Shown piece after piece: positions 1-35,734 of a DNA stretch of 64,000 nt. The notes beneath the pieces were generated by a model that saw nothing but the letters and a program-made list of their open reading frames with translations, did not search any database and had not been told where the DNA came from. Made by a program: the position numbers and the translations under genes. This DNA is from Rugosimonospora africana (lineage in GTDB: Bacteria > Actinomycetota > Actinomycetes > Mycobacteriales > Micromonosporaceae), in assembly GCF_016862975.1 (NCBI RefSeq), contig NZ_BONZ01000034.1, forward strand, positions 1-64,000. The letters are read 5' to 3'. Within the stretch, counting starts at the first letter, position 1. Each line of letters starts with the position of its first letter.

Positions 1-49
1 TGGTCCGGGTCGTAGCGCGGCGCCAGACGCGCCGAGCCGGACTGGTCGG
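1..49 (+). repeat. Dispersed hairpin element, copy A (5' end cut by window)
   Basis: This is the first of three copies of an element also found at 22539-22589 (+) and 33077-33130 (-). All three share the core GCCAGACGCGCCGAGCC. It folds as an outer stem (TGGTCCGG with CCGGACTGG, including two G-U wobbles), a TCG/CGA stem, and an inner GCGCG/CGCGC stem closing an 8-nt loop. The other copies start 1-3 nt after a TGA stop, so a + strand gene probably ends just before this window. Function is unknown. Confidence 0.7.
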
Positions 50-21145: not shown

Positions 21146-22537
21146 ATGAAGCGGACACTCAGGAGCCGGAAACCGCGCCGCCGTCCCCGCGTGCGCGGCG
21201 GCCTGGTCGCCGCGGCGGCCGGGCTTCTCGCCGTGAACCTGCTCGCCGCGTGCGGCGGCGGGGCCGCGAGCGGCGGCCCCACCCCGACGGCGTCCAGTTC
21301 CACGTTCATCGCCAACTGCAAGGACGGGGCCACCAAAATCACGTTCTGGGCCTGGGTGCCCGGGATTTCCCGCGCGGTCGCCGCGTACAACGCCGGTCAC
21401 CCGGACACCTGCGTCGAACTGGAGGACGTCGGTGCCGGCAACCCCGAGTACGTGAAGCTGACGAACACGCTGAAGGCCGGCTCCGGCGCCCCGGACGTGG
21501 CCGAGGTGGAGTACGACGAACTGCCGTCCTTCGAGATCACCCACAGCGTCCTGGACCTGTCGAAGTACAACGCGAACTCGGTGAAGGACAAGTTCGTCCC
21601 GTGGGTGTGGCAGGAAGTCAGCAGCGGCGACTCGGTGTGGGCGATTCCCGGCGACGCCGGCCCGATGGCCTTCTACTACAACGCGACGCTGCTGTCGAAA
21701 TACCACATCAATCCCCCGGCCACCTGGGCCGAGTTCGCCACCGCGGCGGCCGCGCTGCACAAGGCCGCCCCGCAGACGTACCTGACCAGCTTCGCCGCCA
21801 CCGACCTGCAGTGGATCCTGAGCCTGATGGCGCAGGACAACGCGTTCCCGTTCCAGTACAGCGGCGGCGACACGGTGACCATCAACTTCACCGGGCCGGC
21901 CCAGACCGCCTTCGCCGACTACTGGGACCAGTTGTTGAGCGCCCACCTGGTCAACCCCGGCACAGACGTGGACGCGCCGTCGTTCGCCAACCTGGACAAG
22001 GGGATCGACGCGAGCTGGCTCAGCTCCGCGTGGGGGCCGTCGTACTTTGCCCCGGCCGCGCAGGCATCGGTCGGTTCCTGGCGGGCCGCGCCACTGCCCC
22101 AGTGGACCGCCGGCACCAACGTCGCCGCCAACTGGGGCGGATCGTCGTACCCGGTGTTCAAGCAGTCCAAGCACCCGGCCCAGGCGGCCGCGTTCGCGAT
22201 CTGGCTCAACGCGACCGACGAAGCCTGGAACATCACGAAGACCGCGCCGTCGTCGCTGTTCCCGACGTACAAGCCGCTGCTCGCCGATCCGACGTTCCAG
22301 GATCTGACGGTACCGCTGTCCGGGACGGCGACGCCGTACGTCGCGTTCTCCGCGGCGGCCAACAGCGCGACGCCGGTGCAGTGGCCGCCGTTCATGACCG
22401 AGGCGCTGACCCAGTCGACCACCGCGTTCGCCAATGTGGCCTCGGGCAAGCAGACGCTCAAGGCGGCGTTCGCCGGCTTCCAGAAGACGCTGGTGAACTA
22501 CGCGAAGCAGCAGGGCTTCAAGGTCTCCACCTCCTGA
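21146..22537 (+). CDS. Sugar ABC transporter substrate-binding lipoprotein
   Basis: This 463-residue extracytoplasmic lipoprotein delivers oligosaccharides to the permeases encoded downstream. An Arg-rich n-region and hydrophobic stretch end in lipobox LLAAC (Cys at about 36), followed by a GGGAASGG linker. The SBP family 1 fold is shown by ITFWAWVPGISRAVAAYNAG, LKAGSGAPDVAEVEYDELPSF, WAIPGDAGPMAFYYNATLL and NPPATWAEFATAAAALHK. NWGGSSYPVFKQSKHPAQAA lies in the C-lobe. AAGGAG precedes the ATG by 7 nt. Operon order and the GH51 gene suggest arabino- or arabinoxylo-oligosaccharides (inference). Confidence 0.93.
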   Translation: MKRTLRSRKPRRRPRVRGGLVAAAAGLLAVNLLAACGGGAASGGPTPTASSSTFIANCKDGATKITFWAWVPGISRAVAAYNAGHPDTCVELEDVGAGNPEYVKLTNTLKAGSGAPDVAEVEYDELPSFEITHSVLDLSKYNANSVKDKFVPWVWQEVSSGDSVWAIPGDAGPMAFYYNATLLSKYHINPPATWAEFATAAAALHKAAPQTYLTSFAATDLQWILSLMAQDNAFPFQYSGGDTVTINFTGPAQTAFADYWDQLLSAHLVNPGTDVDAPSFANLDKGIDASWLSSAWGPSYFAPAAQASVGSWRAAPLPQWTAGTNVAANWGGSSYPVFKQSKHPAQAAAFAIWLNATDEAWNITKTAPSSLFPTYKPLLADPTFQDLTVPLSGTATPYVAFSAAANSATPVQWPPFMTEALTQSTTAFANVASGKQTLKAAFAGFQKTLVNYAKQQGFKVSTS

Positions 22538-22538
22538 C

Positions 22539-22589
22539 CCGACTGGTCTGGGTCGCGTGGTGCCAGACGCGCCGAGCCAGACTGGCCGG
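22539..22589 (+). repeat. Dispersed hairpin element, copy B
   Basis: It starts one base after the TGA of the binding-protein gene. Outer stem CCGACTGGTCTGG/CCAGACTGGCCGG has two central wobbles, the inner stem is CGTG/CGCG and the loop is GTGCCAGA. It shares its core with copies A (1-49) and C (33077-33130). Confidence 0.75.
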
Positions 22590-22598
22590 CAGGGTGGG

Positions 22599-22678
22599 CC
22601 GGCGGGGCGCGTGCTCCGCCGGCCCGGCCACCGGGATCCGCCGGGGCCGGACCGGATCGGGCGGATCCCGGTGGCCGG
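22599..22678 (+). terminator. Paired hairpins between binding-protein and permease genes
   Basis: A small stem (CCGGCGG/CCGCCGG, 22599-22622) is followed by a perfect 19-bp inverted repeat at 22624-22642 and 22660-22678 with a 17-nt loop. In sugar ABC operons, such intercistronic hairpins protect the binding-protein mRNA or partly end transcription, giving more binding protein than permease (family knowledge). Confidence 0.75.
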
Positions 22679-22706
22679 CGGAAGCAGTACCCGAGAAGGG
22701 AATACC

Positions 22707-33076: not shown

Positions 33077-33130
33077 TCGACCAGTCTGGCTCGGCGCGTC
33101 TGGCGCCGCGCCACGACCCAGATCAGTCGG
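33077..33130 (-). repeat. Dispersed hairpin element, copy C
   Basis: On the minus strand it begins 3 nt after the TGA (33134-33136) of the glycosidase gene. Its outer stem is CCGACTGATCTGG/CCAGACTGGTCGA, its inner stem GGCGCG/CGCGCC and its loop GCGCCAGA. It shares its core with copies A and B and has the same orientation relative to the preceding gene as B. Confidence 0.75.
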
Positions 33131-33133
33131 TTG

Positions 33134-35734
33134 TCAGCCTAGCCGCACGGTCAGGGTGTGCTGGCCTCCGCCGGTGCCGGCGGGTACCCGGACCTCGGTG
33201 CCCCGGGTGGTGGTGACCCGCTGGTACGCGATCTGGTGCCCGTCCAGCGACACCGACCGCACCGAGGCCCCGGCCGGCAGTACGGCGCCGAGGGTCAGCG
33301 TCCCGCGCACCCCGGTCCGGCGCACCTGCGTGGTCAGCGTGGCACCCGAGCGCGTCGCGGTCACGTCGATGTCGCCGCCGCCGAGCCGGATGCCGGAGCC
33401 GGCGACCCGCTGCTGCCCCGGCGGGATCTGCGGTACGACGGCCAGCTGCCCCCGGCCCAGGTCCGGCGCGACGCCGAGCTGCTGCGCGACGACCGGCCAC
33501 AGCACGCCGTAGGTGCCCCACGCCTGGAGCACGCTGGAGCGGCTGAGGAAGTCGTGCGACAGGTTCGACCCGAAGTCCGGCGACGGTGCGATCTCCGGCA
33601 TCGCGCCGGGCAGCTCCCACACGTCCGGGTCGAGCTGGATGCGCGCGTTGTCGGTGGTGTAGGCGTGCTGCTGGGCCAGCCGGCCGTAGTTGCCCTCGGC
33701 GACGGCCGCGACCGCGGAGCCCAGCGAGAACGTCTCGCGATCCGACGGCGCGGACGAGACCACGGAGTCGCAGGACGGGCCGGGGTTGCCCTTGGCGTCG
33801 CTGGTCGGCCCGGTCCCGGTGTGGAACAGCCCGAAGTCGCCGTTGTAGCAGGCGCGTTCGTGCTGGGCCAGGGTGTCGTCGGCGTGCGCCACCGAGGCCA
33901 GCGGGCCGCCGGGCAGGTCGGCTTCCATCGGGGTCAAGCCGATCCAGTACCGCTGGTACAGCTTGACGTTGCCGGGGTCGGACAGCGAGTCGGCGTAGCC
34001 GTGCGCGTCGCCGCCGTACCAGAAGGTGTCCTCGAACTTCTTCTCCCGGCTGGCGGCCTGAGCGTTCGCCCAGTCGGCGGTCGCGGTGTCGCCCTTGCTC
34101 GCCGCCAGCTGGGCGACGTCGGCGAGCCCGCGGATGGTGTAGACCGCGACGTCGAGCTTCTCGGCGCCCATGCCGGCCCGTTCCACATTGCCGGAGCCCT
34201 CGGGCCAGCCGTCGCCGTCGGCGTCGAGCCCGACCGCGTACTTCATCGCGCGCACGCTGAAGTCGTACATCGAGTCGCGGAACGAGTCGTCCCCGGTCCA
34301 CCGCCAGACCAGCGCGACCGCGCTCGGGAACTTCACCGTCTCGTCGGTGTTGCCGGGGTCGTCGTTGGTGCCGTAGTACACCTGGCCGTCCGGGGTGACC
34401 TCGTGCACCACCTTGCCGGACTTGGCGTTCACGATGTCGCTGACGTCGCGCAGGGTGCGCAGGTGATCCTCGATGGCCTCGAAGTCGCCGGCGGCGACCG
34501 CGGCGAACGCGGTGTACTCGCCATCGGTGCCGAAGATCCACGGGTAGTCGGGCCAGCCGGCGCCGATCCAGCGCGCCTGGGCGAGGGTGCCGGCCAGCGG
34601 CGGCGACTGGGTGCCCTGGTCGCTCGCGAACAGGTGGAGGTCGCGCGACTCCTGGACGGTGTCGGCGAGGTTCTGCTTGGACCACTCGACGCTCTGCGCG
34701 AGCAACGGGTCGCCGGGCAGGTCGACGTGCGTGCGGTCGGACACCTCGCGCCGCTGTGCCTGCTTGCGCGCGAACTGACCGGACGGGTCGCGCAGCGCCG
34801 CGGCCAGCGCCGCCTGGGCCGGCTGCTTGCCCTGGTCGGAACCGGCGACCGCGAACCACACCGTCCGGCCGCCCTTCGGGACGTCCAGCGTGTAGGTCAG
34901 TTGACCGCCGGTGCCCTTGCCGGCCGGGCCGTCGTCGCAGCGCGCCGGCGCCGGATCGGTGTTCGGGCAGATCACCGCCGGATCCTGCGGGCCGCGGAAG
35001 TCCGGGCCGAGCTGGTGGCCGTCCGGGGTCAGCTGCGCGCCGACCAGTGCCGCGTAGTGGTTGGGCTGCTCCTGAAAGACGAGGTCGCGCCCGTCGAAGC
35101 TACCCGTGTCGGGCAGGTTCACCGTGTCCTGGCTGGGCGTGGTCCCGCTCCACGGGTACGCCTTGAGCAGCTCCGAGTGCGCGTCGACGGTCAGCCGTAC
35201 CTGCCGGGCCCCGCCGTCGAAGTGCAGTCCGACCAGGCCGGCCCGGTTGCCGTCGGGTACCACGTCGGTGCGCTGCACACCGCCGCCGAGGTCCATCCGC
35301 GTGTACCCGTACCCGCTGGTGAAGCTCTTCGCCTTCAGCCAGGTGCCGTCGACGGCGAACCACAGCCCGTCGAGCAGCTTGATGGGCTGGCTCCAGAACC
35401 CGCCCATCTCGCCGCGGACGTGCCAGCCGGTCGCCGGATAGCTGCCGTCCGCCGCGCCGACCTCGTAGAACCGGTCGCCGATGGTGACCGTGCGCCGGTC
35501 GGCGAGACGGTCGCTGACGGTGAGTTCGTCGCCGCTGTTGTGCGCGCCGCTGCCGTGCGCGGCGGTGGCCGGTGCCGGTGTCACCGTGAGACCGGCGGCG
35601 ACCAGCGCCGCGGCGGCGGTGACGAGCACCGGTGCTGAGGTCAGGACGCGCCTGCGGGTTCGGCCACGTCTCGTTGTCCAGGTGTTGGTCCATGACAGGG
35701 CATGCCAGATTGACTGAGCACGCTTGGCGGGCAT
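33134..35734 (-). CDS. Secreted six-hairpin glycosidase (glucoamylase/debranching-like)
   Basis: This 866-residue exported enzyme has a long N-terminal signal with RRGRTRRRVLTSAPVLVTAA (possibly Tat-type) cleaved near PATAA. A beta-sandwich (60-330) is followed by an (alpha/alpha)6 toroid (about 340-760) with SVEWSKQNLADTV, GWPDYPWIFGTDGEYTAFAA, GLDADGDGWPEGSGNVE and GTYGVLWPVVAQQL. The Glu of DGWPEGSG and Asp of FGTDGEY are the likely catalytic acids. A small C-terminal beta domain ends in LTVRLG. Similar actinobacterial proteins are labelled glycogen debranching protein, but the fold also occurs in GH15, GH63 and GH78. The substrate is not settled by sequence. Confidence 0.78.
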   Translation of the reverse strand: MPAKRAQSIWHALSWTNTWTTRRGRTRRRVLTSAPVLVTAAAALVAAGLTVTPAPATAAHGSGAHNSGDELTVSDRLADRRTVTIGDRFYEVGAADGSYPATGWHVRGEMGGFWSQPIKLLDGLWFAVDGTWLKAKSFTSGYGYTRMDLGGGVQRTDVVPDGNRAGLVGLHFDGGARQVRLTVDAHSELLKAYPWSGTTPSQDTVNLPDTGSFDGRDLVFQEQPNHYAALVGAQLTPDGHQLGPDFRGPQDPAVICPNTDPAPARCDDGPAGKGTGGQLTYTLDVPKGGRTVWFAVAGSDQGKQPAQAALAAALRDPSGQFARKQAQRREVSDRTHVDLPGDPLLAQSVEWSKQNLADTVQESRDLHLFASDQGTQSPPLAGTLAQARWIGAGWPDYPWIFGTDGEYTAFAAVAAGDFEAIEDHLRTLRDVSDIVNAKSGKVVHEVTPDGQVYYGTNDDPGNTDETVKFPSAVALVWRWTGDDSFRDSMYDFSVRAMKYAVGLDADGDGWPEGSGNVERAGMGAEKLDVAVYTIRGLADVAQLAASKGDTATADWANAQAASREKKFEDTFWYGGDAHGYADSLSDPGNVKLYQRYWIGLTPMEADLPGGPLASVAHADDTLAQHERACYNGDFGLFHTGTGPTSDAKGNPGPSCDSVVSSAPSDRETFSLGSAVAAVAEGNYGRLAQQHAYTTDNARIQLDPDVWELPGAMPEIAPSPDFGSNLSHDFLSRSSVLQAWGTYGVLWPVVAQQLGVAPDLGRGQLAVVPQIPPGQQRVAGSGIRLGGGDIDVTATRSGATLTTQVRRTGVRGTLTLGAVLPAGASVRSVSLDGHQIAYQRVTTTRGTEVRVPAGTGGGQHTLTVRLG

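Follow-up and report, generated by a model that had tools for sequence, protein, structure and literature searches.

The window, the whole 64,000-nucleotide stretch of Rugosimonospora africana DNA analysed here, contains three copies of a 52-nt palindromic repeat belonging to a sizeable and real repeat family that is undescribed as far as literature searches reach. The family is very probably a non-autonomous, dispersed palindromic repeat of the Micromonosporaceae and works in the manner of the Rickettsia palindromic elements (RPEs). Its copies are dispersed over lineage-specific sites, some of which are empty in relatives, and in three aligned proteins the element accounts for an insert of about 16–18 residues.

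The three hairpin copies reported in the first-pass annotation were all found in the window by the covariance model. Copy A (1 to 48, plus strand) is truncated at its 5' end by the contig start and matches model positions 5-52 at 65.9 bits, with nhmmer also locating it; copy B (22540 to 22588, plus strand; 64.1 bits) is 49 nt long through a 3-nt deletion; and copy C (33078 to 33129, minus strand; 78.5 bits) is a complete 52-nt element. The exact 17-mer GCCAGACGCGCCGAGCC occurs three times in the window, and when up to three mismatches are allowed there are nine matches against 2.7 expected, a number reached by 0 of 100 shuffles. A search against Rfam gave no match at or above the gathering score in the window and nothing at E up to 1 in four element loci; between 22500 and 22700 there were five sub-threshold matches, every one of them over the hairpins downstream of copy B. 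These are two very strong, consecutive hairpins (22596-22625 and 22626-22676, plus strand) that lie 3' of copy B and outside the repeat. The region 22539-22680, which holds copy B together with them, folds at -111.5 kcal/mol (z -6.2), and the pair perhaps represents transcript 3'-end structures.

The family consensus is a near-perfect palindrome in which a G-G mismatch divides a 12-bp outer stem from the inner stem, which is closed by an 8-nt loop; the two-part stem with an 8-nt loop originally proposed for the window copies is correct. The ends of the repeat, CGACTGG and TGGTCG, are paired with each other, and flanking sequence is only weakly biased, towards GA on the 3' side. Covariation was assessed in a gap-free alignment (A3) of 85 distinct copies from the own genome and its relatives, with the own-genome copies drawn at random and with orthologues, near-duplicates, low scorers and copies of odd length omitted. 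Standard pairs occupy 96.2% of the cells in this alignment, a value reached by 0 of 500 shuffles, and slid versions of the stem pair in 25 to 35% of cells. The outcome is a conserved, strand-specific fold with covariation: double compensatory changes occur at 9 of 20 stem pairs and in 100 cells, neither figure being reached by any of 500 shuffles, and RNAalifold returns nearly the same fold as the stem model. The number of further pair types was 26 against 23.6 in shuffles (reached by 43 of 500). The change from TCTGG/CCAGA to TCCGG/CCGGA, previously read as compensatory, is real and also common, since it falls on pair 10-43, which is C-G in 41 rows, U-A in 31, U-G in five, G-C in three and non-standard in five. 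In an initial alignment of 27 rows, double change was seen at two pairs, a number matched by 109 of 500 shuffles, and in seven cells (0 of 500); this modest covariation reflects the choice of rows through the exact core, and the 85-row alignment supersedes it.

The strand-specific fold belongs to the sequence that spreads. At two neighbouring positions of the outer stem U-G and G-U pairs predominate (51 and 58 of 85 rows), so that full pairing is available on one strand only, and the modelled strand is the better folder in 130 of 135 full-length copies. Among the 123 full-length copies of the own genome, G-T cells outnumber A-C cells by 207 to 43, and with the two fixed wobble pairs set aside the same copies hold 30 G-T against 40 A-C; the 42 rows from other genomes, treated likewise, hold eight G-U and three A-C, too few to judge. 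Since there is no excess of G-U over A-C outside the fixed wobbles in the own copies, we see no sign there of selective, strand-specific upkeep of an RNA fold after insertion. The own full-length copies differ from the consensus at a mean of 1.8 of 49 scored positions, and the loop and inner sequence are near-invariant across genera.

Further copies elsewhere in the genome had been anticipated, and the covariance model returned at least 151 matches in the 11.1-Mb own genome (E up to 0.01), a floor, with just 150 candidates scored by the model. The exact 17-mer core was listed at 78 places, and with up to three mismatches it gave 387 + 379 matches against 301 + 242 for a reversed control. Under strict filters, 134 of 354 Micromonosporaceae genomes, in 8 of 44 genera, carry a match at the cut-off and 220 of 354 lack one. 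None of 24 genomes from other families of the order had a match, and in a class-wide sample of 394 genomes matches were confined to the own genome and one other genome of the same family. Micromonospora species, a Planosporangium, a Dactylosporangium bin and a Micromonosporaceae bin are among the named genomes in the matches listed, and 22 chosen genomes, all preselected as positive, carried from 1 to 53 matches each.

The genomic context was determined from own-genome loci selected for carrying matches, with genes called by a simple codon-usage caller whose starts are approximate. The fetched loci hold 220 copies forming 173 arrays (133 single, 34 double, five triple and one quadruple), and all 40 multiple arrays are head-to-tail, most often with a period of 54 or 53 nt. 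By location, 117 arrays are intergenic, 48 lie within a called gene, four overlap one and four are at edges; intergenic sites are strongly favoured, with 117 of 169 arrays in 11% of the sequence pool. The 48 in-gene arrays include weak cases, and 23 of them score above 10 for coding on both sides, 12 in sense and 11 in antisense orientation.

These positions bear on the claim of the first-pass annotation that the hairpin is primarily a 3'-UTR RNA element, that is, a terminator, an mRNA stabiliser or a processing site. Copy B does lie 2 nt past the TGA of the gene at 21191-22537, as described; copy C, placed there within 1-3 nt of a TGA, lies 4 nt past the stop of the minus-strand gene at 33134-35629. 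Across the genome the association with stop codons is real in the sense orientation, where a stop lies 1-4 nt ahead of 14 of the 117 intergenic arrays, copies B and C among them, against 2.6 expected (0 of 5000 permutations within the same gaps), although these arrays are a minority. Antisense arrays within 1-4 nt of a stop number one against 2.4 expected, and at 3-7 nt there are eight against 3.0 expected (p 0.008), a range picked post hoc. All three stop codons (TGA, TAG and TAA) are represented, in varied sequence, so that the excess is not accounted for by a simple target. Strong hairpins follow copies B and C, but for the set of 14 the next 75 nt fold only moderately better, at a mean of -34.7 kcal/mol, than those of the 103 other intergenic arrays (-28.5). 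The stop-codon excess, the strong hairpins after B and C and the better folding of the sense strand would all suit a 3'-UTR element; however, close fit is confined to 14 of 173 arrays, 48 of 173 are within genes, the orientation of the 117 intergenic arrays to their neighbouring genes is spread over all four types (36, 31, 28 and 22), and the G-U count beyond the fixed wobbles shows no excess. The claim of a primary 3'-UTR role is not supported by this distribution, and we consider such a role improbable for the family. A minority of copies, those just past a stop codon, may have been recruited as 3' hairpins.

The in-gene copies point instead to an RPE-like dispersed repeat, since they are present in frame in conserved proteins. 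Where 150 nt on both sides are coding-like on one strand, with the frames of the two sides set independently, the frames agree across the element in 20 of 24 own-genome cases and four are out of frame. In a Micromonospora genome (G343, which shares an identical locus with M. yasonensis DSM 45980), the same test on the best 30 of 54 matches, under slightly looser limits, found 15 of 28 arrays flanked by coding sequence, 15 of 15 in frame, and 13 unflanked. Relatives contributed 65 copies from some 50 loci; 21 of these copies occupy an open frame, defined without a frameshift check, and exceed a coding score of 10 on each side, although a few loci enter this count more than once. Two peptides recur, DWSGSxRGxRRAEPDWS and, in antisense, DQSGSARLxPRxDPDQS, and are found in 15 of the 23 best own-genome cases. 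The nine array periods within called ORFs, eight of 54 nt and one of 51 nt, are all multiples of three; outside them the periods are 54, 53, 52, 57 and others, with 19 of 38 divisible by three (Fisher p 0.007). This contrast was rejected as proof of translation because it is partly circular, a frame-shifting array being expected to break the ORF and so leave the class; the arrays that pass the independent two-sided frame test, two in the own genome and two in G343, all have period 54. Six-frame openness was also rejected as a special adaptation, since openness of the consensus in every one of the six frames is matched by 21.6% of shuffles and shared by only 70 of 135 copies.

A Pfam scan covering 20 of the 23 best cases placed the element in phenylalanyl-tRNA synthetase beta chain (PheT), an alanyl-tRNA-synthetase-like protein, SelB, a RecQ-like helicase, 3-hydroxyacyl-CoA dehydrogenase, GH31, GH92, a Memo-like protein, DyP peroxidase and histidine kinases, among others. 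The GH92 protein aligned to solved structure 6f8z with an 18-residue gap precisely at the element, and the DyP peroxidase carries a net 18 extra residues relative to 24rq. In PheT, an enzyme required for protein synthesis, 16 of the 18 element residues face gaps in 28 of 29 loci of other genomes, and the net difference in length is 16 residues in 15 of 29 loci and 14-20 in 28 of 29. An insert of about 16 net residues would fit the loss of about two residues of the old loop, or a loop that varies. The PheT site is filled in the own genome alone among 30, where a single match is full-length and five others are short and fall on the insert. The solved PheT 7daw, which we take to be that of M. tuberculosis, is about 14 residues shorter at the place of the insert. 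The exception among the 29 loci, from another family of the order, carries an unrelated, repetitive in-frame insert of AVERL repeats in the same loop. An AlphaFold model of PheT was discarded for placing the insert as too poor (mean pLDDT 59.5, pTM 0.31). In the solved-structure alignments of GH31, Memo and 3-hydroxyacyl-CoA dehydrogenase the insert was not spanned; those of SelB and the AlaRS-like protein contain it within an unaligned stretch that gives no size; and a GGDEF host had no solved-structure match at the cut-off.

The age of individual sites varies. Several Micromonospora sites are common to more than one species, and in six Micromonospora groups the pairwise identity of the element is 0.95 to 1.0 against 0.45 to 0.96 for the flanks, where indels are counted as differences and one species with a cut flank was dropped from the first group. 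A purely selfish repeat does not predict that orthologous copies out-conserve their flanks. Conservation of this kind, together with a loop and inner sequence that barely vary between genera, would be in keeping with a protein-binding DNA site, serving chromosome organisation or as a recombination signal and selectively kept in place. Such a role is nonetheless highly improbable as an account of the family, given that the PheT site is filled in the own genome alone among 30, that 220 of 354 genomes of the Micromonosporaceae have no match at the cut-off under strict filters and that many copies are within coding sequence. One orthologous site holds a single copy in one Micromonospora and three in another. 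Visual inspection of another in-frame site (30 loci, drawn from 151 genomes with a match) showed an intact element in one species, decayed copies in four and none recognisable in the others. The decayed copies lie in a variable linker, and one of them (L266) seemingly keeps complementary arms of different sequence.

From the strand-specific fold, we infer that the dispersed repeat would spread through a single-stranded hairpin intermediate of DNA or RNA, processed by some enzyme. Each new copy would add about 54 nt, so that within a gene it would leave the frame intact and extend the protein by a hydrophilic stretch of some 18 residues, likely to be tolerated in linkers and loops. Local multiplication would proceed by tandem duplication, through slippage or unequal exchange, and be followed by decay. 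It is conceivable that this mobile hairpin, moved by some enzyme and adding about 54 nt or 18 codons, is in effect tuned to be harmless to genes and thereby keeps supplying short peptide insertions to proteins, essential ones included; we hold this only tentatively, since the net PheT insert comes to about 16 residues and the test of array periods is partly circular.

A search of the own genome with PF01797 (Y1_Tnp) found one gene, in an IS200/IS605-like unit, with no copy of the repeat in the 3366-nt locus, and mobilisation of the RAYT type was rejected because this sole gene sits in a unit without the repeat. By reading, the unit (L231:1490-3160) consists of the Y1 transposase gene and a divergent gene resembling tnpB. 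The element could instead be a MITE, derived by deletion from an insertion sequence and acted on at its terminal inverted repeats by that sequence's transposase, whether still present or lost; this reading overlaps with the RPE-like explanation and differs in the mover. The 12-bp terminal inverted repeats, the high copy number and the location of copies inside another repeat are as a MITE would have them. We nevertheless regard a MITE as rather unlikely, since the search for Y1-class genes revealed no autonomous partner, no clear target-site duplication was seen (among 90 single copies, 2-nt matches numbered 16 against 9 expected, with none at 4 nt or more) and the outer U-G and G-U pairs suit a single-stranded fold better than a double-stranded terminus.

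Set beside known repeat systems, the Micromonosporaceae element shares with MIRU, the interspersed and tandem repeats between genes of an actinomycete, its tandem and intergenic occurrence in an actinomycete, and differs in being palindromic and in also lying within genes. RPEs are described as dispersed palindromes that lie in frame in unrelated genes and leave the host protein recognisable despite the added peptide (PMC10969869, PMC3733652), and the former report gives their length as about 150 bp. By behaviour and description, the present element resembles them in its many dispersed palindromic copies (at least 151, with a covarying stem of 20 pairs) and its in-frame presence in unrelated protein genes (20 of 24 and 15 of 15), whereas it is 52 nt rather than about 150 nt long, occurs in Micromonosporaceae rather than Rickettsiales, as one repeat family spread over eight genera, and forms head-to-tail arrays. 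The GTAG/CGTC REPs, according to PMC3733652, are short, high-copy palindromes lying partly within ORFs in several phyla, and the G-T pairs of their stems are taken there as a sign of transcription; by the same argument, the single-stranded intermediate of our element could be RNA. With those REPs, as so described, it shares the short, high-copy palindrome, the fraction in ORFs and the G-T pairs, but it lacks an unpaired GTAG or CGTC tag, its ends being paired; its 52 nt exceed the 20-40 of REPs, it forms head-to-tail arrays, and RAYT, the partner of the GTAG class, was not found in the own genome. The text of that paper makes no mention of actinobacteria, Micromonospora, Salinispora or Streptomyces, and no actinomycete report of such a repeat was found in the open-access PMC literature. 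The RPE is the best analogue, and the repeat appears to work like one, yet it departs from the named families in length, tag and RAYT.

The best descriptions of coding palindromic repeats come from Rickettsia, and REPs in ORFs are known from some other phyla; the same behaviour now appears in an actinomycete family with many cultivable members. The many natural insertions of about 18 residues, with relatives that lack them and copies at varied stages of decay, make insertion tolerance and the spread of the repeat testable. Segments derived from the repeat are present in the gene models and domain alignments of these genomes, and its copies may interrupt assemblies, copy A being located at the end of a contig.

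A second, MIRU-like repeat, GAGCGAGCGTCAGCGAG...GTGCCTCATGCCGGACC...GGATCCGGCATGAG, lies at gene junctions of the own genome, where its ends overlap the upstream stop and the downstream ATG (examples at C17:42389-42485, C43:36155 and C1:119010). With up to one mismatch it occurs at 14 sites, and the 52-mer is inside five of these and absent from nine. The net insert there, read by eye, is 53-54 nt; set against the 16 residues in PheT, it makes the exact inserted length uncertain. A single insertion, spread along with the second repeat, may account for the five filled sites.
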